A DNA stretch of 64,000 bases, taken from contig CAIKAS010000317.1 of the NCBI GenBank assembly GCA_903825445.1, forward strand, positions 1-64,000, given 5' to 3'. The notes below the pieces were generated by a model, which worked only from the letters and a program-made list of their open reading frames with translations, made no database searches and was not told the DNA's origin. Shown here one piece after another: positions 20,625 through 57,892 of this stretch; within the stretch, counting starts at the first letter, position 1, and each line of letters starts with the position of its first letter. The position numbers and the translations under genes are program-made. Source of the stretch: an uncultured Acidobacteriia bacterium. GTDB taxonomy: Bacteria; Acidobacteriota; Terriglobia; Bryobacterales; Bryobacteraceae.

Positions 20625-20701
<77 letters not shown>

Positions 20702-45455: not shown

Positions 45456-47651
45456 TTATCTGACGACCAGATGAGCGCGTGGAAACGCGAATTTCCGGCT
45501 GACTTCATCCACAGCCGTTATCTGACTGGTGTATTCACCAGCCGGGATGTCCTTCAGTGGGATCTGGAACTGTACCGGCACCGCTTCAGGCCGCGTCGAT
45601 ATCACCTGCGTGGCATCGATCGGGCCCACTTCAAATGCCTTGACTCCGTTCTTATTGAACAGGCTCATACTGACTTTCACGCGTCGCGCCTTTGTGTCGG
45701 CCGGGTCCGGCAACGCATCGTAAACGTCGAAGTTCACGTAGAGCGTCTGTGAACGGCGGAACACTTTGGTTACGTTCGGAATGACCTTCTCCGTGCCTAC
45801 GACCAGCGGATTCGCCGCCAGAGTCTGCCTGGATGAGCGTTCAGCCGATCCCACCGCTGCATTTACAGCATTCCTCTGGTTGCTCAGAATAATTGAACTG
45901 AGCTTGAGGCCGTGTGTGTCGGCACTTAAATCCGGTATCACGAAGCGGGTTTCAAATGTCCCCATCTTGCCCGATATGTTCTCGCGAACTACAAATTTCA
46001 GGTGATATGTACCTGGCTGCAAAGTGAAACCGGCGTCGTATTGATACGTGCCCTTTGTTGCGCGCTCCGCATTCGCCCCATCGAGCTTTACTTTGATATT
46101 GTCGCGGACGTTACCGACCGCAGCGTGAGTGTCGTCCTGAACCTGACCGGCAAAATCGAGCTGCGTTTCGGCCGCTCCGCCTTTTTGCGCCACTGCCACC
46201 ACGGAACCAGGCACGCGAATCGATGCCGGGACATAATAGGCGGTCGGCGAAATACGGAAGTAGTCGAGTTGCAGCACCAGGGGCAGATCCGTCACCGGGT
46301 CGCCGGATGAAAGAGCCTGCGTCAGCTGATACTCCTTGTCCTCGCCGTTCATCTTTTGCCAGTTCTTGTCGGCGTAGTAACCCTCGCGGCCTTCGATCTT
46401 CGCGCCCGAGATTTTGCTGTTCAGTTTGTAGCTGATCTTGCGATACTTACCGTCCTCATTATTGTTATTGCTGTAGTAGCCCACCAGATAGTAGCTGCTC
46501 ATCGCCTTTTGAGCGTTCTGAATTCCAAGCGCGATGTTATTGCTGTCAACGAACATCTTGCCGCCCGTGTCGGCTGCCAGCGAATTCAGCGTGTCCTGTG
46601 ACGCGTTGATCCCGGAGCGCTGCGAATTGTAGGCAGAGCCGTTATAGAGGCCCGAACCTCGCGGACCCGCCGTGCTGGCACCGCCACCTGGAGGGTCTGC
46701 CATCAGACCGCGGGCGTCGATCGGGAAAATCGCCATGTTGGCTTTTTCTGCGAGATTGATGGTGGCCTCTAACTGTGCCTGATTCTCCATGCCTGTTCCA
46801 GAGACGCCGGAAGAAAAATAGATCAGGGCCTTCTTCTCGGGAAAACTTTTAAGCATCTTAGCGACTTGCCCGATGGCGATCAGCTTCTTGTCGGTGTTGT
46901 AAACGTTGAACTCGGTCTCGTCGGCAACGAACGCCGCTCCCGTGTCCTGACCGTTGTCATCGCCGGTGTCAGCCAGCCCTGCCAGTTCCGTCGCCTCGCC
47001 GATCGGCAGCTGGCGGATAACGTTGGTCAGCTCGTCACGGTCGTCCGTGAAATCCGTCAACACCACCGGCGTGCTCGTATAAAGCACAATTGCAACCAGG
47101 TCGTCTTTAGTGATGAACTTCTGCAGATAGTCCAGCGCCGCATCCTGGGCCCGCAATTGTTCGGCTACTGCCATAGAGGAAAAGTCGAGGTAGAAAACCA
47201 TCAGCCGCTTGTCTTTGAAGTGGAGCTGGCCTGGCGTCGGCGACGTGAGTTCTGCCTTCGGTTTCTCCGGCAGCTTCAGTTCATCTGCAAGTTTCAGTTC
47301 CTCCGGCGGCTCCGGCTCCATGACAAGCTCCTGATACTCAAAAACGGAGAGCTTCTGCGGCTTGCCATCTTCGTAAACCGTGATGTCTTCCTGTTTGAGG
47401 TTCGGGATAATGTTGCCGGCCTTGTCTCTCACCGTGACATCAGCGATCACCAGATTGCTGTTCGACCTGAATACGGGCGTTGCCGACTCCGATGCGGCAG
47501 CCGGCGCTTTCGCGGTCGTAGCAGCCGGAGAGGCTGGTTGGGCCGCTTGTTGTTGTGCCCACAGAAACTGGGTCGCCGTAGGGATCAGGAGCGCTATTCC
47601 GACCGCTCCAGCCGCAATGAGACCCTTCGTTCGCATTAGCTTGGTTTGCAT
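45456..47651 (-). CDS. Secreted VWFA-related domain protein
   Basis: The 731-residue protein has a signal peptide (KGLIAAGAVGIALLIPTATQFLWAQQ), an N-terminal beta region with DVTVRDKAGNIIPNLKQEDITVYEDGKPQ (about 72-100), and a von Willebrand A domain (MVFYLDFSSMAVAEQ to NSLAADTGGKMFVDSN). The MIDAS motif is DFSSM rather than DxSxS, so metal binding may be weakened. A long C-terminal region predicted to be beta-rich follows. Its ATG shares one base with the stop of the upstream Oar-like receptor gene (TGATG). The pair may form a surface complex, which is inference. Confidence 0.87.
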   Translation of the reverse strand: MQTKLMRTKGLIAAGAVGIALLIPTATQFLWAQQQAAQPASPAATTAKAPAAASESATPVFRSNSNLVIADVTVRDKAGNIIPNLKQEDITVYEDGKPQKLSVFEYQELVMEPEPPEELKLADELKLPEKPKAELTSPTPGQLHFKDKRLMVFYLDFSSMAVAEQLRAQDAALDYLQKFITKDDLVAIVLYTSTPVVLTDFTDDRDELTNVIRQLPIGEATELAGLADTGDDNGQDTGAAFVADETEFNVYNTDKKLIAIGQVAKMLKSFPEKKALIYFSSGVSGTGMENQAQLEATINLAEKANMAIFPIDARGLMADPPGGGASTAGPRGSGLYNGSAYNSQRSGINASQDTLNSLAADTGGKMFVDSNNIALGIQNAQKAMSSYYLVGYYSNNNNEDGKYRKISYKLNSKISGAKIEGREGYYADKNWQKMNGEDKEYQLTQALSSGDPVTDLPLVLQLDYFRISPTAYYVPASIRVPGSVVAVAQKGGAAETQLDFAGQVQDDTHAAVGNVRDNIKVKLDGANAERATKGTYQYDAGFTLQPGTYHLKFVVRENISGKMGTFETRFVIPDLSADTHGLKLSSIILSNQRNAVNAAVGSAERSSRQTLAANPLVVGTEKVIPNVTKVFRRSQTLYVNFDVYDALPDPADTKARRVKVSMSLFNKNGVKAFEVGPIDATQVISTRPEAVPVQFQIPLKDIPAGEYTSQITAVDEVSRKFAFPRAHLVVR

Positions 47652-50600
47652 CAGAATGAAAACCTCAGATTCATGGATACCGTTCTCATTTGCGAGGCGC
47701 CTGTTGCGATCCCGAAAGTGTTCGATGAGATGTTCGTACCGAAACCGGAGATCGTAGGATGATTCAGCGCGTTGTTGGTATTTAGCTGGAATGCCAGCGT
47801 CCGCTGCGACGCTTCATTGCCGAGGCGGAACGTGCGCCGAAAATTCATACTGAATGTCGCGTGCGGCAGGCCGGGAATCGTATTCCGCCCTGCATCACCG
47901 TACTCGCCAGGCAGCGGCGTGGTGAACGCAGCAGGATTGAAGAACTGATACCCTGGCGCGTCGATCGGCAGCCCTGTTGCTTCTGCACGCAACGTCCCGC
48001 CAATGGCGCCTCCACCACCGAGGTTCGACAGATTTCCAGACACTGTCGCGGTGGAGGGTGTGCCGGAAGTGAAGTTGAAAGAACCGTTCGTCGCCCACCC
48101 GCGCATCCATGTTGTGAACCATTTCGTGTTCCGGAAGCGGCCTCTTACACCCACCGGTGATGTCCACTGAAACGTCGTCGATAAATTATGCGGCTGAGCA
48201 AAATTCGAAAGGCCGCGCTCGAGATACAGGTTGTTGATGTACTGCACCACCGTGCCGCCTGGACCGCTGAAACTGGAAACATCATCAATCGACTTCGAGT
48301 AGGTGTACAGGGCCGTCGCCGCCATGCCGCCAGTCAGGCGCTTCGTCAGGCGGACTTGCCCGGCGTGATATATAGAGTTCCCGTTCGAACTCTGATAGGT
48401 GAATTGCGCGGCCGTTGGAATCGGCAGCACCCCAGTCAGTGAACGATTAGGCTCCTCGACAATACCCAGCCGCGTTCCTTTGGTGCCGATGTATTCGGTT
48501 TCCATCAAGACACCCCACTTGAGCGATTCCTGTACAGTCGCGTTCCAGGTCTGTGCGTAGGCCAACCGGTAATTCGGATCTATTGCATAAGTATCCGTTG
48601 TGGTGACCGTCGATGGCCCGAAAAATCCGTCCTGCAGCGTAAGCGGGTTCGCGATACCCTGCGTGCTGAAGGCCTGCGCGTTGACGAACGGCGGTTGAGA
48701 GCCCATCTGGCTGGCGATCTGGTTATACGCAGAGCCGCTGTAAAAAATGCTGTAGCCAAAGCGAGTCACTATGCTGTGTTTTTGTGAAGGCCGCCAGGCC
48801 AAACCGAGTCTCGGCGAGAATGCTTCCTTATCCGGACGCACCAGGCTCGAAGGCAATGTGCTGCCGTTGAACGGGTCCTTCATACCCGGAGTGACCACCG
48901 CGACAGCCGTCATTGCCGGATTCAGAACTACGTTTGCCAGATTGCCGCGCAACTCGGAGTCTGGCGAAAAGTACTCATACCGAACCCCGATATTCAGTGT
49001 CACTCCCTGCGAAATTCGGTAGTCATCCTGGGCGTAGGTGTTCATGTTGTGCTGGCGAAAATAGCGGTTTGTCGAGCCGAATTGCAGTGAACTCGACGCC
49101 GGCAACCCCAGCAGGAAGTCGGCAAAATCGTAGCCCGTGCCCGAAAGGGGTGTGCCCAAAGGCCCGGTTTCGCTGGTCAGCAGCCCTGTAAAGCTGAACG
49201 ATCCGCGGGTATTCGCATAGCTGAGATTGTTGTACTGCTGCCGCTGGTAAGTGTACCCAAAAGTCAAATTATGCTTTCGTCCAATGACGTAGGTAAATGA
49301 GTCCGTGAACCCCATCGTCTGCGGCCGGCTGGAACCAACGTTGCCGTCGCTGATGCCGCCGAAGTTCGTAAACCGAATGCTTGGGAGCCCCCAGGCGTTC
49401 GGGTCCTGCGTGACGCCGCCAATGCCCAGGTTCGACTCCACATTGGTCTTACTCTCGAAATAGTCCTTGTTGTTGGTCAGGTTGCGGCTCAACGTTACGG
49501 TGCCAACGTTATTGATCCGTGCCTTGAAGCTATGGTTCCAGCCGACCGACGCGCTGAGCCCGCTGCCCGTCGAAGGGTCCTGAAACTCGCCGTAGTTCTG
49601 CAGCGAATACGAATTCCTGTCCTGGAACTGGACATTAAAATTAAGCCTGTCCTTATTGCTCAGTGGCGCGTTGAAACGAACTCCGATGCTTTGGCTGTTC
49701 GATGGTGTGTTCGCAACCAGCCTGAAGTTCTGCACCAGGAGGCCGGTATATGTCGGAGTCGGGAAGTACTGCTCCAGCCCCACAGCAACGGGGCTGATCC
49801 GCGACTGTGGAATGATGTTCCCCGTAAACGGAGCGCCGCTGAGCGGGTCGTAAATAATGGAAGGCTTGCTGAGATCGTTAAAGTTCCCCGACATCAGGGC
49901 CGCTGTTGGCACTGTGGACAATTGGTCGATGCCGCTGAGGTTGTGCGATGCAGAGTAGCTAATGCTGTACTGCGAACGCACCCATTTCACGATGTGTGGC
50001 ACGACCAGTGGTCCACCGATCGTCGCGTTAAATGTATTGGTCATCGCTTGCGGTTTAGGCGCTGCTGTTCCGTTCAGGTTAAAAGGCGCCGCGTTCAGCG
50101 CGGAATTGGTCCCTGCCCAGGAGATCGTCCCCGTCGGCTTGTAAGGGTTCTTTCGACGGTTCCCGATCTGGTTGTATTGCCCGCCGAAGGCTCCGCGCAA
50201 AGCGGCGCTCGCCTGGGCATTGCCTCCACGGCCACCACCACGTCCACCGCCCCCGCCCCCGCCTCCTCCTCCGCCACCACCCCCGCCGCGTCCACCGCCG
50301 GCGCCGCCGCCTGGCGTAAATCCATTGCCGCCCAAGCCACCGCCGCCAGGCCCGGCCGCCGCCCCCACACCGAATCCGCCGTTGATTGCCGCTGCGCCAA
50401 ATCCACCCAGTCCCAACGAATCGTTGGTGACTGAAGTCATCCCCGGAGGCATTCCCAGGTTCTCAGCCAGCGACGAACTGTCCAGGGCAGCTGAAACCTG
50501 TCCGGCTGTCGCTCCGCCAGGACCGCCACGGCCACCACCCTGCTGCATCATGCGTTGACGCGCCGCTTCGTCCATACTCGATTGCGCCAGGCCGCCGCTC

Positions 50601-51367
50601 GTGCTGCCATTCACCAGAAACGCCTCGTCGCCGGCAACATCTTCAAACTCGGACGGCAAATTGCCTGGCGTTGGAGTGGAGCTGGCTGTCTCCGCAGGTG
50701 TCGTTGCGGGAGGCTGCCCCTCCTGTGCTGCCCTCACCTGGGCATTCTGAAAACCTCTGCCTGGGGCCACGGCGGCCATCTGAGTTCCGGTGGCGCCCGA
50801 AGTTCCGCTCGCACTGGCGGCGCCGGACGCCCCGGCTGCCCCGCGCCCGCCCCGCGCCTGCTGACCAAATCCTCCCGGTGCTCCGGGTGCGCCCTGGCCG
50901 CCAAATCCACCGCGTCCGCCTCTCCCACCGCGTCCACCCCGTCCACCACCACCCGCCTGTGCTCCCGCCTGCTGCGCGGCTGCGGCAGCGGCCACCGCGC
51001 CAGCCGTCGCCTGATCCGTCGTATCCGCCCCGGCTGTGCCACCGAGCCGCTCCCGGAGTCGCGGCATTTCGAGCGCCCATTCCTGCCGGGCAGGGGTGTT
51101 GGTGATCGTTACCTTGCCTGTTGACGTTGTAAACTCAAACATCTCGACGGCGATATCCCAGTTTCCAGGAGCCAGATCCATGCTGTAGCGGCCGTTCTCG
51201 TCGGTGTAAGCGATCACCTTGGCATCGCCTTTCCGGGCGGTGACCATCGCGCCCGGCACCGGCTGGTCGGCGGCCCGCACAGATCCGCCGTATTGCGCCG
51301 CCGGCAACGATCCGGACACCATGAGGATAAGGGCTGCGAGAGTCAATACATGGATTCGTGTTGGCAT
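47651..51367 (-). CDS. Oar-like TonB-dependent outer-membrane protein with carboxypeptidase-regulatory domain and long Gly-rich region
   Basis: The protein of about 1238 residues has a signal peptide (LTLAALILMVSGSLPAAQ) and a carboxypeptidase-regulatory-like domain (about 20-85; YGGSVRAADQPVPGAMVTARKGDAKVIAYTDENGRYSMDLAPG). Two Gly/Arg-rich stretches follow (about 130-190 and 325-385). The remaining sequence is a large beta-barrel ending in the outer-membrane signature MNLRFSF. Such proteins are abundant in Acidobacteria; cargo is generally unknown. The plug region is interrupted by the glycine-rich segments, which is odd. The ATG at 51367 gives the signal peptide. It is coupled to the VWA gene downstream. 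Confidence 0.85.
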   Translation of the reverse strand: MPTRIHVLTLAALILMVSGSLPAAQYGGSVRAADQPVPGAMVTARKGDAKVIAYTDENGRYSMDLAPGNWDIAVEMFEFTTSTGKVTITNTPARQEWALEMPRLRERLGGTAGADTTDQATAGAVAAAAAAQQAGAQAGGGGRGGRGGRGGRGGFGGQGAPGAPGGFGQQARGGRGAAGASGAASASGTSGATGTQMAAVAPGRGFQNAQVRAAQEGQPPATTPAETASSTPTPGNLPSEFEDVAGDEAFLVNGSTSGGLAQSSMDEAARQRMMQQGGGRGGPGGATAGQVSAALDSSSLAENLGMPPGMTSVTNDSLGLGGFGAAAINGGFGVGAAAGPGGGGLGGNGFTPGGGAGGGRGGGGGGGGGGGGGGGRGGGRGGNAQASAALRGAFGGQYNQIGNRRKNPYKPTGTISWAGTNSALNAAPFNLNGTAAPKPQAMTNTFNATIGGPLVVPHIVKWVRSQYSISYSASHNLSGIDQLSTVPTAALMSGNFNDLSKPSIIYDPLSGAPFTGNIIPQSRISPVAVGLEQYFPTPTYTGLLVQNFRLVANTPSNSQSIGVRFNAPLSNKDRLNFNVQFQDRNSYSLQNYGEFQDPSTGSGLSASVGWNHSFKARINNVGTVTLSRNLTNNKDYFESKTNVESNLGIGGVTQDPNAWGLPSIRFTNFGGISDGNVGSSRPQTMGFTDSFTYVIGRKHNLTFGYTYQRQQYNNLSYANTRGSFSFTGLLTSETGPLGTPLSGTGYDFADFLLGLPASSSLQFGSTNRYFRQHNMNTYAQDDYRISQGVTLNIGVRYEYFSPDSELRGNLANVVLNPAMTAVAVVTPGMKDPFNGSTLPSSLVRPDKEAFSPRLGLAWRPSQKHSIVTRFGYSIFYSGSAYNQIASQMGSQPPFVNAQAFSTQGIANPLTLQDGFFGPSTVTTTDTYAIDPNYRLAYAQTWNATVQESLKWGVLMETEYIGTKGTRLGIVEEPNRSLTGVLPIPTAAQFTYQSSNGNSIYHAGQVRLTKRLTGGMAATALYTYSKSIDDVSSFSGPGGTVVQYINNLYLERGLSNFAQPHNLSTTFQWTSPVGVRGRFRNTKWFTTWMRGWATNGSFNFTSGTPSTATVSGNLSNLGGGGAIGGTLRAEATGLPIDAPGYQFFNPAAFTTPLPGEYGDAGRNTIPGLPHATFSMNFRRTFRLGNEASQRTLAFQLNTNNALNHPTISGFGTNISSNTFGIATGASQMRTVSMNLRFSF

Positions 51368-51462
51368 ACTTGGTGTCAGATCCCGTGGAAGGGTAATTAT
51401 GATTGTCATCGACAGAGGTTTCGTGCCAGGCCGCCCGCAAAGATCTGTAAACGGACAATGAG

Positions 51463-52170
51463 ATGAGCTTATCGCAGTTTCTGGCCGAAAGGGGTCGAAA
51501 ACTCCAGAAGTCGTTTCGCTCGAAGCGAATGGGACGTTTTGCCGCGACCTTCCCCCTTACGGAATCTAAACGGATTCTCGACGTCGGCGGTACCCCTGAG
51601 ATATGGCGATTGCTTGGGGAGTCACTCCCGAACCGCGCGCCCTCCGTAGTTCTGCTTAACATGCCACGCGCCGATGCGGGTCGAGCATCCGCCGAAGCTG
51701 GTCTGGCATTTGTCCACGGCAATGGCTGCAACATCCCTTTCGCCGACGGCGCCTTCGATATTGTCTTCAGCAATTCCGTGATCGAACATGTGGGGGGACC
51801 GGCGGCACAACAGCAGTTTGCCGCCGAGATCATGCGAACCGGCCAAAGCTTTTGGGTGCAGACGCCGAACCGCTATTTCCCCATCGAGATGCATCTGCTC
51901 ACCCCGCTGGTCCATCTGCTGCCGCCAGCGATTCGGGATTTCATAGTCCGGCGGTTCTCGGTTTGGCAATGGATACGCAGACCCTCCCCGGACGAGAAGA
52001 ACTTTTACGTCGAGCACTTTATTGCCGACATTCATCTGCTCTCCGCCAGCGACATGCAGCGGCTCTTTCCGGATTCCATCATCCTCCGCGAGCGCTTTCT
52101 GTTGTTCACGAAATCGCTGGTCGCCTGTCGGCTTCCGGGGCCCCACGATAAGCGTCCAGCAACTCTCTGA
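51463..52170 (+). CDS. Class I SAM-dependent methyltransferase
   Basis: The 235-residue protein has the SAM-binding motif RILDVGGTPEIW (about 37-48), the acidic end of the second strand near VVLLNMP, GNGCNIPFADGAFDIVFSNSVIEHV (about 86-110) and a later WVQTPNRYFPIE, as in Methyltransf_11-type proteins. The substrate is unknown. It is divergent from the Oar-like gene. Its last 65 bases overlap the 3' end of the convergent histidine-kinase gene, an unusually long overlap. Confidence 0.85.
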   Translation: MSLSQFLAERGRKLQKSFRSKRMGRFAATFPLTESKRILDVGGTPEIWRLLGESLPNRAPSVVLLNMPRADAGRASAEAGLAFVHGNGCNIPFADGAFDIVFSNSVIEHVGGPAAQQQFAAEIMRTGQSFWVQTPNRYFPIEMHLLTPLVHLLPPAIRDFIVRRFSVWQWIRRPSPDEKNFYVEHFIADIHLLSASDMQRLFPDSIILRERFLLFTKSLVACRLPGPHDKRPATL

Positions 52171-54763
52171 CCCGCAGCAACAGAGTGGGCGATGAGAATG
52201 GCTTCTGAATGAAATTGACCGCCGCATCGTCGTGCAGCCAGAGACGGTCGTTGTAGCCGGACATGAACAGGATTGGCACGCCGGGATAAACGACGGCGAA
52301 CTGCGCGGCCAGATCCACTCCACCCACCTCCGGCATCACAACATCCGTCAGTAAGAGATGGATCGGCCCAGGATACCGGTGAACCACGTCCATAGCTTCG
52401 AGACCGTTCGATGCCTCCACAACGTGGTAACCGTGGCGCTCCAGAACATGGCGCACATAGCCGCGCACGCCAGCTTCGTCCTCAGTCAGCAAAATCGTTT
52501 CGTTCCCGCCTCCCTCAGCCTGCGCCACAACGGCGGGAGCTGCCACCACAGGTTCGTGCACCCCGGGCTCAACGGCGGGAAACAGGAGACGAAACGTGGT
52601 CCCCTTGCCAGGCTCGGTCTGCACAGAAATCGACCCCTTGCTTTGCTGCACTATGCCGTAAACCGTCGAAAGCCCCAGGCCAGTCCCCTTGCCACGCTCT
52701 TTCGTCGTAAAGAACGGCTCGAAGATCCTCGCTTTCACTTCTCCCGACATGCCGACGCCGGTATCGCTCACGGCCAGCATGACGTAATGCCCCGGTGTGA
52801 CCGCCAGCCGGCCCTGCGCCGATTCTTCATCTACATACAAATGCACCGTTTCCACCAGCAAGCGACCGCCCTCGGGCATGGCGTCCCGGGCGTTGATTAC
52901 GAGGTTGACTATCACCTGCTCGATGTGCCCTGAGTCGGCCCGGATTGTCCCTGCGTCCGCATCGAGCGAAAACTTCAGTTCCACGTCTTCGCCTATCAGC
53001 CTGCGCAACATCGTTTCTATGTTGCCCACTACATCGTTCACAACGACATCGGTTTGCTCGGTGGGTTGCCTGCGCCCAAAGGCAAGCAATTGGCGCGTGA
53101 GGGCCGCGGCACGCGCGGCGGCGCGAGAGATTTGCTCGACTGGTTCGCACACCGGATCGTTCGGATCCACACGGCTCAGAATTAGTTCCGAATAGCCGGA
53201 GATGATGGTCAGCAGGTTATTAAAATCGTGCGCAACGCCACCGGCAAGCTGGCCGATGCTGTCCAGTTTTTGGGCCTGCAGTAATTGCTCCTCCAGGTGT
53301 TTGCGTTCCGTAATGTCGCGCATGATTGCCGCAAAGCAGAGCAGCTGACCCGTCTCAGGATCGCTGACGGGAAACAGATTCATGAGCACGTCGATTGGCT
53401 GATGAGTTCCAAGATGGCGCAGTTGAGCTTCGCCGATCCAGTTGCCTTCTCCGCGGAGTATCGACGGCAGGATCTCACTGCTAAGCTTCGTCCACCACTC
53501 CTGCGGATGAAGGTCCGCGAACGGCGTCCCCGGTGCTTTGGTGCTCTCGAGTCCCACCAACCGGCATCCGGCCCGGTTAATGAAAAGAATCCCGCCATCC
53601 AGCCCGACCATACCGATGAAGTCATCGGTTTGCTCTACGAGCGAAACGAACTTCTGTCGTTCCTCTTCGGCGCGTCTCCGTTCGCTGATATCCCAGCAAA
53701 CGCCTGTTAGTTTTACAGGCTTGCCCGCCGTATCGTACGATACGCTGCCGCGCGCGCAAAGGCTGTGTAGACTGCCATCAGGCCAGATGACGCGGAATTC
53801 AACATTATAGGGAAGGCCAGCAGCGGCAGATTCGTCTGCAGCCGCGCGTAACGGCGCGCGATCCTTTGGATGAATGAAATTCAGGAAATTCTCATATGCT
53901 CCGACCGGGGTGCCGATTCTGAGCCCAAACAGCGGGTACATGAAATCGTCCCACGTCACCGTGTCGTCAGCCAATCCTGCGCTCCACGTTCCGACACCGG
54001 AAGACTTCAGTGCAAGATTGAGGCGTTCGTGCGCCTGTTGCAGCGCGGCGTCCCGTTCCTGTATCTGTGCCAACATGTCGTTGAAGGCGCCGATTAGCTC
54101 GGCAATTTCGTCCTGACTCCCGCTTTCAGGAGCTCGGACGTCGTACTTTTTCTCCCGCGAAACCACGCGGGCCACTCCGGCCAGCTGCAGGATCGGCCAT
54201 GTCGCCGATCTCTGGAAAATCGTCGAGAACAGCCATGCGGCGGGCAGCGAGATCAGCAGAACAACAATGACAATGCCGCCGTACCGCAGAAATCGGTCAT
54301 AGATTTCCCGCAAGTCAGAGCGAATGTAGACGGTGCCGATCCGCTTCCCCTGAAAGAGGACAGGCCGAATCAAGACCAGCGAATCGCGCGTGAAGTGGTG
54401 GGTTTCCACAGTGCCTGCGGCACTCGTGCCGAGTGGCCCGGGAATTGCCCCCGGTTCGCGCATATAGGTGGCGAATTCGTCACCGGAGGGCGTGTAGATT
54501 GAAACCGAAACGATATTGGGCGCGGCGCTGAGAGCCGATAGAGTATTACGTGCCGAATCAGGGTCTCCAAATAGTACTGCCGACGCACAGTTTGCTCCGA
54601 GGATCTGCGCTTGTACGGACAGGTTACGCACCATCGTCTGAGTTAAAGTAGCCAGTTCGTACGCCACAAACGCCGACGAAGCGATCAGCAGCGTGGCTCC
54701 GCTGACAAGCAGATTCATCCACGTCAGTTTTTTACGGAACGAGTAACGTCCAAAGTCCGGCAT
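52106..54763 (-). CDS. CHASE8 hybrid sensor histidine kinase with C-terminal receiver
   Basis: The 885-residue protein has two membrane segments (about 14-36 and 162-184) around a periplasmic CHASE8-type domain (QILGANCASAVLFGDPDSARNTLSAL, about 52-77). A HAMP (about 185-238), two PAS domains (about 245-365 and 370-490), HisKA with His512 in GGVAHDFNNLL, a HATPase (NLVINARDAM, DTGVGM, GKGTGLGL) and a receiver with Asp807 in LLLTDVVMPE and Lys854 follow. It probably senses a periplasmic signal and phosphorylates its own receiver; no DNA-binding partner is adjacent. CHASE8 is known from YfiN, whose periplasmic partner is YfiR. Here the ATG shares a base with the stop of a YfiR-like gene (TGATG). 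Confidence 0.9.
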   Translation of the reverse strand: MPDFGRYSFRKKLTWMNLLVSGATLLIASSAFVAYELATLTQTMVRNLSVQAQILGANCASAVLFGDPDSARNTLSALSAAPNIVSVSIYTPSGDEFATYMREPGAIPGPLGTSAAGTVETHHFTRDSLVLIRPVLFQGKRIGTVYIRSDLREIYDRFLRYGGIVIVVLLISLPAAWLFSTIFQRSATWPILQLAGVARVVSREKKYDVRAPESGSQDEIAELIGAFNDMLAQIQERDAALQQAHERLNLALKSSGVGTWSAGLADDTVTWDDFMYPLFGLRIGTPVGAYENFLNFIHPKDRAPLRAAADESAAAGLPYNVEFRVIWPDGSLHSLCARGSVSYDTAGKPVKLTGVCWDISERRRAEEERQKFVSLVEQTDDFIGMVGLDGGILFINRAGCRLVGLESTKAPGTPFADLHPQEWWTKLSSEILPSILRGEGNWIGEAQLRHLGTHQPIDVLMNLFPVSDPETGQLLCFAAIMRDITERKHLEEQLLQAQKLDSIGQLAGGVAHDFNNLLTIISGYSELILSRVDPNDPVCEPVEQISRAAARAAALTRQLLAFGRRQPTEQTDVVVNDVVGNIETMLRRLIGEDVELKFSLDADAGTIRADSGHIEQVIVNLVINARDAMPEGGRLLVETVHLYVDEESAQGRLAVTPGHYVMLAVSDTGVGMSGEVKARIFEPFFTTKERGKGTGLGLSTVYGIVQQSKGSISVQTEPGKGTTFRLLFPAVEPGVHEPVVAAPAVVAQAEGGGNETILLTEDEAGVRGYVRHVLERHGYHVVEASNGLEAMDVVHRYPGPIHLLLTDVVMPEVGGVDLAAQFAVVYPGVPILFMSGYNDRLWLHDDAAVNFIQKPFSSPTLLLRVRELLDAYRGAPEADRRPAIS

Positions 54764-55389
54764 CAGGGACCCCTCCTGACCACACGGGCAACCTTCAGCA
54801 GTTCCGAACTAAGCGTGAGGCCTGATTTCGTAGCGACCGATACGCTGATGTCAAATCGAACTCTGTTCCCGTCCAGCACGAACTGAATCATGCCGCCACG
54901 TCGGGAGAAATCCGGAAGGTCGGCTACCGTCAACACGGGGGAATCTCCCAGGGCGGCCAAAACAGCACTCAGCCGGTTTTCTTCACTGGACGATATAAAG
55001 AGAACCCGGCAACCCTGTGCATCCTGAGTGTTCGTTATCCGTTTTGCCACTAACGGAGCGCCCTCGATATTCTCGTCCCTAATGGCGGCATCGAGACTGG
55101 GGCCAAACGGATCTTGCCCCAGCACGCAGATCGCAAAGGGTTCATCTGCGGATGGTCTCGAGTGGGGTCCCCACGATTCTACGAAGCGGCCCAGGTTGGA
55201 AAGGTAGGCGGCCTTGACCTGATATTCGGTGGGCTTCGCGCCCTGGGCGACAGCGGGTAGCGGCATGATGAGGCAAATTGTCGCCAAAGCGAGGCCGAAG
55301 GATATCCACCGCTCAGGCGAGAGCAGGGTGCTGCGGACGAATCCGATCCGGCACAGTACCGACCGCGAGAACATGCTGCCGGTCGTCAT
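54763..55389 (-). CDS. YfiR-family periplasmic protein (DUF4154)
   Basis: The 208-residue protein has a signal peptide (ISFGLALATICLIMPLPAVAQ) and the YfiR/DUF4154 domain: EYQVKAAYLSNLGRFVESWG, FAICVLGQDPFGPSLDAAI, GCRVLFISSSEENRLSAVLAAL, VLTVADLPDFSRRGGMIQFVLDGNRVRFDISV (about 155-186). In Pseudomonas YfiR binds the periplasmic domain of YfiN and represses it. The ATG at 55389 overlaps the upstream receptor stop (ATGA); a GTG at 55398 is an alternative. Both junctions of this gene overlap its neighbours, indicating a tightly coupled operon. Confidence 0.9.
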   Translation of the reverse strand: MTTGSMFSRSVLCRIGFVRSTLLSPERWISFGLALATICLIMPLPAVAQGAKPTEYQVKAAYLSNLGRFVESWGPHSRPSADEPFAICVLGQDPFGPSLDAAIRDENIEGAPLVAKRITNTQDAQGCRVLFISSSEENRLSAVLAALGDSPVLTVADLPDFSRRGGMIQFVLDGNRVRFDISVSVATKSGLTLSSELLKVARVVRRGP

Positions 55390-57422
55390 CTTCTCCACGT
55401 GATCGCCGCTATAACATTGCGCTTGATGCCGACCAGTGATCCGGGGTCGCCACCGTACTCCGCATGATGCGGCTGCAGCAGATTCTGTCCGGTGACCGCA
55501 AACTCAAGATGCGAACTCGCGTGCCAGGCGAATCGCACATCGGCTGTTTGGTACCCCTGGACCAGTTCTGCCGGGAGAATGCTGACGTACCGGTAGATCT
55601 GGCTGAACTCCATGTGGCCCGGCAAATCCAGAAACGATTGAAAGCTAAGCAGGTGGCGAGGACTGGCGCCATCTTCACTGGTGACGGTAGTTGTATCCGT
55701 ACTGCCCGGTTTCGTGCGGAGATCCATACAGAGATAGGAGAAAGAACCCTGTAGCCGCCACCATGTGGTGGGTTTCCAACTGGGCGCCAGTTCAAATCCC
55801 TTCGTTGTTCCCAGTAAGCCGTTGCGGTTGACGAACGGATAAACAGTGTACGTTTCGCCATCCGTCGTGGTGGTGTAAGGAGTCCCGGGCTCAAGACTCT
55901 CAAGATTCTTGTAGTTGGTATAAAACGTCGCGAGATCAACGGAAAAACTGGGGATGATCAGCTGCCTGTAGCCGATCTCGTAGCTGACGCTTGTCTCTGA
56001 CGTGAAATATCCGTCCCCGCTGGTGACGTTGAATGCCAGGGGCTGCGTTGAGCGCAGTACAGTGTTTTGGAGAGTATCTTCGAGATCGGAAGGAGTCCGC
56101 ACGGCTCGCGTCACGCTCGCCCAGAAAGACTCGTGTTCCGATGGAGTCCAAAGCAGGCGCCCGCTCGGTTCAGTATTGAAACCTGCAAACGAACTGCGGA
56201 ACAGCTTGGCTCCGGCGGTGAAGGAGAGCCGGTCCGGAATGAGCGAGATCTCATCCTGTACGAATGCACTGTAAAGCTGATCGGTGCGGTTGTTTGGTGT
56301 GAATGCGTAAGTGGGGACCACGACGGGCAAATCGGCGGGACTCATGCGCGCGCCAAAACCCCAAGTAATGTCGTGCCGTTTGCTCCGTGCCAGGTGGTGG
56401 ACGAGGTCGAAATCGACTGTATTGCGATACTCCGCCTGGGTTGCCTGAAGCCTGTTTACACGGTCGTAATAAACCTGAATCTGGAGATCCGAACCGCTCT
56501 CGAATACGTGCTTCCAGCGGGCCAGAACATTGGCTCCGGAAAGATCAGCGTTTTGATTTACGACGTTCAGCCCAGGCGGAACGATGGCAGTGACCTTAGC
56601 GCTTTCTCCGGCCAGTCCATCATAGCCATCGCCCTGAATGGTTAGCGTGTCGCGACCGGTAGGTTCCCAGTCCATGCGGAATCCGCCCTGCGCCCGTCTC
56701 TGATCGTCAAACTGGTTGTTATCGTAGTGGTACTCGGGGCTGGTGGTGGAACCCTTCGCGTACACACGATAGCTGAAGTTGCTGCCGTTGCCTCCACCGT
56801 ACCGGAGGTCGAGATAACCTTCGGTCACATTCCCCCCACCCGCAGAAATCAGAGTTCCCCGAGTGTCGCGCGAGTTCTTCGTGATGATGTTGATGACACC
56901 ATCAACAGCATCGGGTCCCCATATCGTTCCGCCGGGCCCGCGGATGACTTCAATCCGGTCGATGTCTTCCAGCAGCGTGTCCTGAACCTCCCAGTAGACG
57001 CCGTGAAAAAGAGGATTGTAGACGTTACGGCCGTCTATCAGAACAAGGACGCCGCGGGCGAGACGTCCTTCAAAGCCTCGAATACCCACGGCCCATTTCA
57101 CGGAATCAATCTGCGAAACTTCTACGCCTGGAGCCAGGCGGAGCACTTCCGGCAGACTTACCGCTCCGGAACGCACAATATCCTGTTGCGTGATGACGTA
57201 AACTGCGGCCGGGGTCCGGGCGACGGAGACAGGCTCCTTTGAAACGGACGTGACTTCGATATTGCCGAGTTGCTCGAGACTCAGACCCTTGAGACTGTCC
57301 TGGAGTGCCGGATCGGGCGGCGGGGTTTGGGAGAGACACGAAACTGCCGCGCCAAAAAAGAGCAAAGCACGCCAACAGGCCCGCGCGCTTCGTTCCCGAT
57401 ATTGTCCGGAACGGATCTTCAT
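55386..57422 (-). CDS. TonB-dependent outer-membrane receptor
   Basis: The 678-residue protein has a signal peptide (ALLFFGAAVSCLSQ), a plug domain (SVARTPAAVYVITQQDIVRSGAVSLPEVLRLAPGVEV, about 65-100; IEVIRGPGGTIWGPDAVDGVINIITKNS, about 157-184) and a beta-barrel that ends GIKRNVIAAITWRR. It resembles catecholate or B12-type receptors without a carboxypeptidase-regulatory domain; the ligand is unknown. It precedes the YfiR gene with ATGA overlap and follows the DUF6526-like gene by 35 bp. Linked to a kinase, it may act as outer-membrane signal receptor or uptake route. Confidence 0.9.
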   Translation of the reverse strand: MKIRSGQYRERSARACWRALLFFGAAVSCLSQTPPPDPALQDSLKGLSLEQLGNIEVTSVSKEPVSVARTPAAVYVITQQDIVRSGAVSLPEVLRLAPGVEVSQIDSVKWAVGIRGFEGRLARGVLVLIDGRNVYNPLFHGVYWEVQDTLLEDIDRIEVIRGPGGTIWGPDAVDGVINIITKNSRDTRGTLISAGGGNVTEGYLDLRYGGGNGSNFSYRVYAKGSTTSPEYHYDNNQFDDQRRAQGGFRMDWEPTGRDTLTIQGDGYDGLAGESAKVTAIVPPGLNVVNQNADLSGANVLARWKHVFESGSDLQIQVYYDRVNRLQATQAEYRNTVDFDLVHHLARSKRHDITWGFGARMSPADLPVVVPTYAFTPNNRTDQLYSAFVQDEISLIPDRLSFTAGAKLFRSSFAGFNTEPSGRLLWTPSEHESFWASVTRAVRTPSDLEDTLQNTVLRSTQPLAFNVTSGDGYFTSETSVSYEIGYRQLIIPSFSVDLATFYTNYKNLESLEPGTPYTTTTDGETYTVYPFVNRNGLLGTTKGFELAPSWKPTTWWRLQGSFSYLCMDLRTKPGSTDTTTVTSEDGASPRHLLSFQSFLDLPGHMEFSQIYRYVSILPAELVQGYQTADVRFAWHASSHLEFAVTGQNLLQPHHAEYGGDPGSLVGIKRNVIAAITWRR

Positions 57423-57457: not shown

Positions 57458-57892
57458 CTACAAGCGGTCGTGATCGGCCTTCCAGGCCTTGACGGCACGT
57501 TTGATGGCGTCGGGCGAAAGGCTCTCGTCGGCGGCACGCTGGGCCAGACCCACGAATTCATCGTCGGACGCAAAACGCAACCCGACGATTTGTTTTACCG
57601 ACAGCCTTTTGTCGAGAAGTTTCCCTGCCAGAACGTAGTGGCGCAGATTCTCTTCGGCGCGGATCGCCCGGTCCTGGGCCTGAAGCGCAAATGTCCGGCA
57701 GAAGAAAGCCAGGAAGAACATCGCGAAGGAAATCGCGGTGATCAGCGACGCATTGTAGAGCCTTGAATGATCGTCCAGCGAGTGGATCAGATTGACAACT
57801 GATCCGATGAGGGTCGCCAGCGCGATCGGCAAGAGGACGTAGTGGAACAGCGGCACGAACTTTGCGTGTTTTGCGTAGCTTTGTTCTTCCAT
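57458..57892 (-). CDS. Small membrane protein, DUF6526-like
   Basis: The 144-residue protein has two membrane segments (about 12-35 and 46-68) and a charged C-terminal helical part. The opening QSYAKHAKFVPLFHYVLLPI and AQDRAIRAEENLRHYVLAGKLLDKRLSVKQIVGLRFASDDEFVGLAQRA (about 72-120) match what I recall as DUF6526. Function is unknown. It is upstream of the TonB receptor gene on the same strand. Confidence 0.75.
   Translation of the reverse strand: MEEQSYAKHAKFVPLFHYVLLPIALATLIGSVVNLIHSLDDHSRLYNASLITAISFAMFFLAFFCRTFALQAQDRAIRAEENLRHYVLAGKLLDKRLSVKQIVGLRFASDDEFVGLAQRAADESLSPDAIKRAVKAWKADHDRL

Follow-up and report, generated by a model that had tools for sequence, protein, structure and literature searches.

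A TonB-dependent receptor that may take the place of YfiB in an acidobacterial operon for YfiR and a CHASE8 histidine kinase

What does an outer-membrane receptor do beside a YfiR protein and the kinase that YfiR might control? This question is raised by a three-gene operon in a 64,000-nucleotide stretch of contig CAIKAS010000317.1 (hereafter the window) from an uncultured Acidobacteriia bacterium, which encodes a TonB-dependent receptor (TBDR), a YfiR-family periplasmic protein and a hybrid histidine kinase. The first-pass annotation of this DNA proposed that the logic of the Pseudomonas YfiBNR system here drives a kinase, with the TBDR in the position of YfiB. Because YfiR covaries in charge with the N-terminus of the TBDR, that position gains support beyond gene order, and charge covariation with the CHASE8 domain and a SAVLF site in the kinase also favour the proposal; its kinase part, however, is not new, as kinase outputs were published in 2012. 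We judge, with a probability of about 0.6, that the receptor replaces YfiB and that its N-terminal segment competes with the kinase for YfiR in a trans-envelope signalling line. The genes are as follows.

55386..57422, minus strand: TBDR gene, 678 amino acids, TOL_0244-like subfamily; Plug PF07715, 71.5 bits
54763..55398, minus strand: gene of the YfiR-family periplasmic protein, 211 amino acids, GTG start; PF13689, 142 bits
52106..54763, minus strand: hybrid histidine kinase gene, 885 amino acids; matched by Pfam and NF053592

The order on the minus strand is TBDR, then YfiR, then kinase. Positions and order agree with the first-pass annotation, as do the ATGA overlap, formed by an in-frame ATG of the YfiR gene at 55389 and the TBDR stop, and the TGATG overlap shared by the YfiR and kinase genes. 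The identities that it gave to YfiR and CHASE8 were upheld by profile searches: the YfiR protein exceeds the cut-offs of PF13689 (24.9) and of NF053591, the TOL_0243 family YfiR-like protein (143.2 bits, cut-off 125), and the kinase matches CHASE8 (PF17152) over residues 41–147 with 68.5 bits (cut-off 27). The AlphaFold model of YfiR (predicted local distance difference test score, pLDDT, 93) superimposes on P. aeruginosa YfiR (4zhu) with a Z score of 17.3 and a root mean square deviation of 2.5 over 144 residues, and the hydrophobic patch V160/F162/L183 of the PAO1 protein reads V/F/V in the window. The kinase has the architecture transmembrane-CHASE8-transmembrane-HAMP-PAS-PAS-HisKA-HATPase-REC (Pfam: PAS_3, PAS_4, Response_reg), and its match to NF053592, HK_near_YfiR_like (“sensor histidine kinase, YfiR-like protein-associated”), reaches 201.3 bits (cut-off 194). 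Its CHASE8 model (pLDDT 93.6) shows a PAS-like fold, with the WalK and CitA sensor domains as best experimental matches. The TBDR aligns over its full length with NCBIfam NF053590 (TOL_0244 family) at 608.6 bits, under the cut-off of 645. Its Pfam matches at E values up to 1 comprise the Plug and a weak barrel match, and none is an N-terminal signalling domain of the FecA type; about 35 residues separate the likely signal peptide, judged by eye, from the plug.

We searched for contacts among the three proteins with a charge test, in which column pairs carrying opposite charges were compared with 500 shuffles. YfiR was paired with the CHASE8 domain at 215 loci, with the kinase core at 171 and with the TBDR at 144; three YfiR pairs in the 215 and 144 rows are near-identical, one of them L102/L112. 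The sites concerned lie in the window at these positions.

57261..57299, minus strand: N-terminal periplasmic segment of the TBDR, residues 42–54, DSLKGLSLEQLGN, the proposed YfiR-docking segment, with covariation at column 15
57288–57290, minus strand: codon of TBDR K45, alignment column 15, within DSLKGLSLEQLGN
57237..57260, minus strand: likely TonB box, TBDR residues 55–62, IEVTSVSK, placed before the plug and conserved in A2
55072..55074, minus strand: codon of YfiR E109 (numbered from the GTG), alignment column 65, PAO1 A89
54323..54643, minus strand: CHASE8 periplasmic domain of the kinase, PF17152
54569–54583, minus strand: SAVLF motif of the kinase CHASE8 domain, counterpart of PAO1 AAVVF
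54344–54346, minus strand: codon of kinase K140, CHASE8 alignment column 132

YfiR column 65 and TBDR column 15 formed the strongest pair: r was −0.71 across 144 loci, and the lowest value among 500 shuffles was −0.42. It ranked first within Acidobacteriota, where r was −0.75 (N 92) and none of the 500 shuffles reached it, and also within other phyla, where r was −0.66 (N 51) and 19 of the 500 did. TBDR column 15 is basic at 24 of the 33 loci with an acidic YfiR column 65 and at none of the 90 with a basic one. In independent contrasts, computed after removal of rows more than 85% alike, the pair was again first, of 3,822, at −0.54, below all 400 shuffles (lowest −0.45). Parsimony over 286 branches placed 16 changes at YfiR 65 and 14 at TBDR 15, eight of which fall on the same branch (P 3e-8 for random placement), all in the matching direction. 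The same association is seen within genomes: in the seven that hold both YfiR 65 states, from 21 multi-system genomes examined, TBDR 15 is basic in six of seven acidic systems and in none of eight basic ones.

YfiR column 65 corresponds to A89 of PAO1 YfiR in two alignments, and A89 is among the residues contacted by the N-terminal loop of YfiB in a crystal structure (PMC4887326). For this reason the covariation suggests that the receptor N-terminus sits at the YfiB docking site of YfiR. It also bears on the strongest rival explanation, that the TBDR only imports a ligand, that YfiR binds this ligand and, loaded or empty, sets the state of the kinase, and that TBDR and YfiR never touch. YfiR does have a fold like that of substrate-binding proteins, its model also resembling Rhodothermus substrate-binding proteins and the Trp-bound structure 3lft, and weak binding of Trp and vitamin B6 is reported for PAO1 YfiR (PMC4887326). 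The receptor may moreover be a plain transporter, since some TBDRs of the subfamily without YfiR lie near hydrolase or efflux genes. Against pure import stand the mapping of column 65 to a YfiB contact and the YfiR 65–TBDR 15 covariation itself, which survives phylogenetic correction and includes eight matching co-changes. We consider the import explanation unlikely, though it is the best of the alternatives.

On the kinase side, mean-field direct coupling analysis (DCA) paired the C-terminal helix of YfiR with the helix after the motif in CHASE8. The top YfiR–CHASE8 pair had a z of 8.4, more than any of 14 shuffled pairings, of which the best gave 7.9; over the 171 kinase-core rows YfiR–CHASE8 reached 7.7 versus 5.3 for YfiR–HATPase. 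Two column pairs stood out in the charge test, YfiR 65 with CHASE8 132 (r −0.52) and YfiR 155 with CHASE8 65 (r −0.49), each with N 215 and a lowest value of −0.34 among 500 shuffles. In Acidobacteriota (N 117) these pairs gave −0.53 and −0.55, ranks 2 and 1 of 6,642, with 1 of 500 shuffles each; in other phyla (N 97) the first gave −0.55 (rank 1, 0 of 500) and the second −0.45 (rank 5, 15 of 500). Independent contrasts put 28–132, 65–132 and 155–65 at ranks 1 to 3 of 6,162, with family-wise P values of 0.018, 0.038 and 0.040, and an independent-pairs test of 155–65 counted 9.7 for and 1.3 against (median p 0.02). In the seven genomes with both YfiR 65 states, CHASE8 132 is opposite in charge to YfiR 65 in 12 of 15 systems, neutral in two and alike in one, L034. 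Six of the eight best YfiR columns lie on the published YfiB/YfiN surface of P. aeruginosa YfiR, compared with 11 of 79 variable columns as background; this surface, compiled from PMC4887326, PMC4655355 and PMC3375315, comprises residues binding YfiB or proposed for YfiN. YfiR 65 thus appears, less firmly than for the receptor, to oppose also a position in the CHASE8 hairpin, kinase K140.

The YfiN site for YfiR in PAO1 is AAVVF (PMC3375315), of which SAVLF is the window counterpart. The Phe of such motifs is kept in 140 of 141 sensors that adjoin a YfiR gene, in seven of nine with YfiR near and not adjacent, and in seven of nine without YfiR, counts that may include duplicate loci. We tried loss of this Phe as a marker of lost YfiR and rejected it, as only two of nine sensors without YfiR lack the residue. 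One Phe-less case is unusual in itself: in L132 (2781–6512, plus strand) a single frame reads CHASE8-HAMP-HisKA-HATPase, a signal-peptide-like stretch and a TBDR, with no YfiR near; this is either a true fusion or an error of assembly.

Covariation of this kind could also come from common ancestry or from the swapping of operons, the gene order then reflecting a transport operon with its regulator. Raw correlations are indeed inflated by ancestry, because the control comparison of YfiR with the cytoplasmic HAMP domain went beyond its own shuffles (−0.44 versus a low of −0.33), although that of YfiR with HisKA/HATPase did not exceed them; and the stricter independent-pairs test of YfiR 65–TBDR 15 fell short of significance (5.2 for, 0.6 against, median p 0.125), so that it is suggestive only. 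After correction by contrasts, however, all five control comparisons (HAMP, HisKA/HATPase, receptor barrel, CHASE8–receptor and kinase–receptor) lay within their 5% nulls, and ancestry is an improbable source of the signal in view of the corrected contrasts for the pairs above, the counts of shared branches and the paralogous systems compared inside single genomes.

Is the receptor a regular companion of YfiR? The first-pass annotation had suggested a survey of gene order, and in this survey the trio recurs. Across the phylum Acidobacteriota, YfiR exceeds its cut-off in 66 of 297 genomes, with 93 matches. Of these, 79 lie 33–143 nucleotides (between profile ends) before a same-strand CHASE8-type sensor, three have a sensor 2.5–5.1 kb upstream and 11 have none nearby, all among the best 103 NF053592 matches (at least 77 bits). 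NF053592 passes its own cut-off in 34 of the 297; GGDEF proteins are among its matches. We also compared the window genome with 60 relatives (33 receptor, 37 YfiR and 36 CHASE8 rows). The receptor subfamily is sharply delimited in these 61 genomes, the listed matches scoring at least 480 bits and other long TBDR matches at most 112, partial matches aside. A YfiR gene lies within 1 kb of 27 of the 30 subfamily TBDRs of at least 480 bits, two of the other three reaching a contig end; conversely, the receptor lies within 1 kb of 28 of 37 YfiR matches, and YfiR within 7 kb of 33 of 36 CHASE8 matches over cut-off (one weaker match excluded).

Beyond this group, named genomes were scanned with the receptor alone. 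Of the best 80 loci, 64 have YfiR (60 with CHASE8 as well, four with YfiR only), four end within 600 nucleotides and 12 have neither. They span Acidobacteriota, Verrucomicrobiota, Planctomycetota, Nitrospira, Nitrospinota, Desulfo-/Geobacter-type groups and Gammaproteobacteria. At ten of the twelve YfiR-less loci one receptor-adjacent gene was scanned, with a dipeptidase, an arabinofuranosidase, an amidohydrolase, a carotenoid gene, another receptor and an efflux protein found; four of the ten had no Pfam match. Three loci, L168, L183 and L205, have two YfiR genes in the neighbourhood of one receptor. Among 299 Pseudomonadota genomes, 46 of 97 YfiR matches over cut-off have a receptor match of at least 250 bits within 8 kb (51 when five weaker, hand-picked matches are added), and YfiR lies within that distance of 46 of the 60 full-length receptors. 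The receptor set here comprised 62 rows of at least 250 bits plus eight weaker ones, hand-picked for contigs or genomes with YfiR.

TBDR and YfiB-like genes were compared as neighbours of YfiR with custom profiles (TBDR above 50 bits, OmpA-like above 60 bits). The sets exclude L126–L134, L247–L276 and L112, which overlaps L102, and L124 gave no match; as some of their members are shared (L059 and L143 seem to be a single contig), each count is cited from one set only. In the phylum a TBDR lies within 5.5 kb of 71 of 92 YfiR loci, and an OmpA-domain or YfiB-like gene at one. OmpA-like matches are absent from the 3.5 kb on either side of the window YfiR. Kinases are found at 56 of the 71 TBDR-linked loci and GGDEF at four, the others having none or an output that could not be assigned. 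In Pseudomonadota, 40 of 46 receptor-less YfiR loci were classed with 3.5-kb flanks: 17 have a weaker TBDR match, eight a YfiB-like gene and none both, and all eight YfiB-like loci carry a GGDEF output. In these samples, therefore, systems with YfiB are of the classical cyclase type, and those with the TBDR mostly have kinases. L045 (5213–5626, plus strand) is the only classed locus where YfiR has both a TBDR and an OmpA-domain gene as neighbours. That YfiR instead switches the kinase in response to redox state or envelope stress, with the TBDR a bystander in the operon, is hard to credit: in the alignment the two cysteines of the PAO1 redox pair C71–C110 are both present in the window YfiR, PAO1 YfiR has been proposed as a redox sensor (PMC4655355) and 14 of the 92 phylum loci are YfiR–kinase loci without a TBDR, yet the structural disulfide C145–C152 is absent from the window protein (S and Q in the alignment) and the TBDR is linked at 71 of 92 loci in the phylum and in several other phyla.

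Several further results, together with the HAMP control and the independent-pairs count above, weigh against competition between receptor and kinase for YfiR. DCA of YfiR with four TBDR segments gave nothing above its one shuffle (maximum z 6.96 versus 7.33), though YfiR 65–TBDR 15 was the top YfiR–TBDR pair. The independent-pairs test gave 2.4 for and 2.0 against for YfiR 65–CHASE8 132 as first coded, 4.4 for and 0.3 against (p 0.125) when recoded, and 4.2 for and 1.5 against (p 0.375) for TBDR 15–CHASE8 132; parsimony found three shared branches for YfiR 65 and CHASE8 132 (P 0.10). Since independent pairs and shared branches are weak for 65–132, the kinase lends less support than the receptor to the claim of a shared site at column 65. 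Two loci are mismatched, L102 (YfiR D, TBDR A) and the paralogue L034 of the window genome (YfiR K, CHASE8 R). An LSLEEL-type segment is carried by 91 of 144 YfiR-linked TBDRs and also by 7 of 12 unlinked ones, so we rejected the idea that it is specific to YfiR-linked receptors. Finally, neither a TBDR nor YfiB lies near YfiR at 21 of the 92 phylum loci and 15 of the 40 in Pseudomonadota.

With these points counted, we still favour a trans-envelope line built on the YfiR–YfiN periplasmic module. YfiR would bind the CHASE8 domain of the kinase and hold it in one state, probably off by analogy with YfiR–YfiN. The N-terminal periplasmic segment of the TBDR, just ahead of the TonB box (residues 55–62, IEVTSVSK, which we take to resemble known TonB boxes), would dock on the YfiR face that meets CHASE8, and because the same face would meet both, receptor and kinase would be competitors for YfiR. 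Changes in the receptor, presumably ligand binding or TonB engagement, would alter the amount of YfiR held at the outer membrane and thereby switch the kinase, which would transfer phosphate first to the REC domain that it carries and from there to an Hpt protein or regulator. The first-pass annotation had predicted a phosphorelay output. This holds as far as the kinase goes, HisKA, HATPase and receiver all being present by Pfam as in hybrid two-component kinases; the window kinase itself has no Hpt domain, and no Hpt or response regulator was found among six window genes scanned with Pfam.

Some relatives, and a paralogue in the window genome, couple this periplasmic front end to GGDEF-EAL. 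This second system, L034, has the order sensor–TBDR–YfiR and a CHASE8-HAMP-PAS-GGDEF-EAL sensor; sensor-first loci like it occur in several genomes of the genus. Pfam scans of seven selected sensors found an Hpt domain within the chain in four. The cultured relatives Geomonas limicola and Desulfacinum hydrothermale have CHASE8-HAMP-HisKA-HATPase-REC-Hpt, and the Methylicorpusculum and Sedimenticola loci join kinase, receivers, Hpt, GGDEF and EAL in a single chain; the remaining outputs were GGDEF-EAL in a gammaproteobacterial locus and GGDEF in L187. Chains of about 1,680 amino acids with CHASE8, kinase, three receivers, Hpt, GGDEF and EAL are seen in L192 (11646–16670, plus strand) and L208 (11410–16467, plus strand). 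Many output swaps were considered, with at least six changes on the sensor tree, yet a single clade for the seven TBDR-linked GGDEF sensors was not rejected (approximately unbiased test, p 0.20), and we do not press this claim. A broader reading, to which we give somewhat less than even odds, would see a widespread class of TBDRs whose N-terminal segment competes with CHASE8 for one YfiR face. In such a class the outputs on a shared front end would be interchangeable (a kinase, a kinase with Hpt, GGDEF-EAL, or a single chain that combines them all), and a charge code at one YfiR site, pairing E with K and K, and K with E and D/T, would help to separate parallel lines within a cell. No locus from L034 to L214, nor the window, has YfiR fused to another part.

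The operon may have a further member, listed here.

57458..57892, minus strand: DUF6526 gene, PF20136, 178 bits, 35 nucleotides upstream of the TBDR gene

Two further loci from this genus, L231 and L223, also have a DUF6526 gene ahead of the operon, and none was found at L228 and L221, where the sequence reaches about 1.3 kb upstream; on this pattern the DUF6526 gene may be the first of the operon, a fourth member in part of the genus. Promoter and terminator scans yielded four and five sites, versus 2.6 and 6.2 in shuffles. At the other end, a methyltransferase gene (51463–52170, plus strand) overlaps the 3′ end of the kinase gene tail to tail by 65 bp, and in L223 it is likewise convergent with the kinase. 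Elsewhere in the window, 47651–51409 (minus strand) encodes an OMP_b-brl_4 outer-membrane protein of 1,252 amino acids with long Gly/Ala-rich low-complexity stretches, and 20625–20701 (minus strand) a tRNA-Pro (ggg), the sole tRNA found by ARAGORN in the window.

If the proposed line is correct, a large named receptor family that extends from Acidobacteriota and Verrucomicrobiota to Gammaproteobacteria would become sensors for kinases or cyclic di-GMP, and a stand-in for YfiB would be explained in many YfiR systems without YfiB. Three named residues, YfiR E109, TBDR K45 and kinase K140, make the idea testable.

YfiBNR of P. aeruginosa, YfiR-DgcN-YfiB of E. coli and HmsCDE of Yersinia share the YfiR domain and the CHASE8-HAMP sensor with the window system. 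The likeness to YfiBNR extends to the YfiN motif, the hydrophobic patch of YfiR and the predicted binding face, whereas the output is a hybrid histidine kinase and not GGDEF, a TBDR stands in place of the OmpA-like lipoprotein YfiB, and the second YfiR disulfide is absent. Distant YfiR–YfiN systems were described by Malone et al. in 2012 as almost all without YfiB and in many cases with GGDEF-EAL, Hpt or kinase outputs, so that YfiR with a kinase output and no YfiB, as in the window, has a precedent there, and the supplementary alignment includes an Acidobacteria YfiR; the word “TonB” is absent from the main text of that paper, and its section on distant systems proposes no other outer-membrane partner (PMC3375315). 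The parts of the trio are already recognised by curators, as NCBIfam (release 20) has models for all three, TOL_0243, TOL_0244 and HK_near_YfiR_like (NF053591, NF053590 and NF053592); all three window genes match them, the receptor just under its cut-off, and the model names are silent on mechanism. The system had been called under-described, which, given the published kinase outputs and these models, is true mainly of the receptor: a receptor role in YfiR systems was not found in a search that covered the open-licence literature and not preprints, an absence that is no proof. What is new here is that YfiR column 65 (E109 in the window) opposes TBDR column 15 (K45) in charge. Most of what is known about signalling by TBDRs concerns FecA-type receptors and sigma factors, the FecA-FecR type combining an N-terminal signalling domain on the TBDR with a membrane anti-sigma factor and a sigma factor. 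The TBDR of the window system would resemble FecA in signalling through contact with a periplasmic protein, and the system would differ in that no N-terminal signalling domain was found on its receptor, the protein contacted is the soluble YfiR and the line leads to a kinase.

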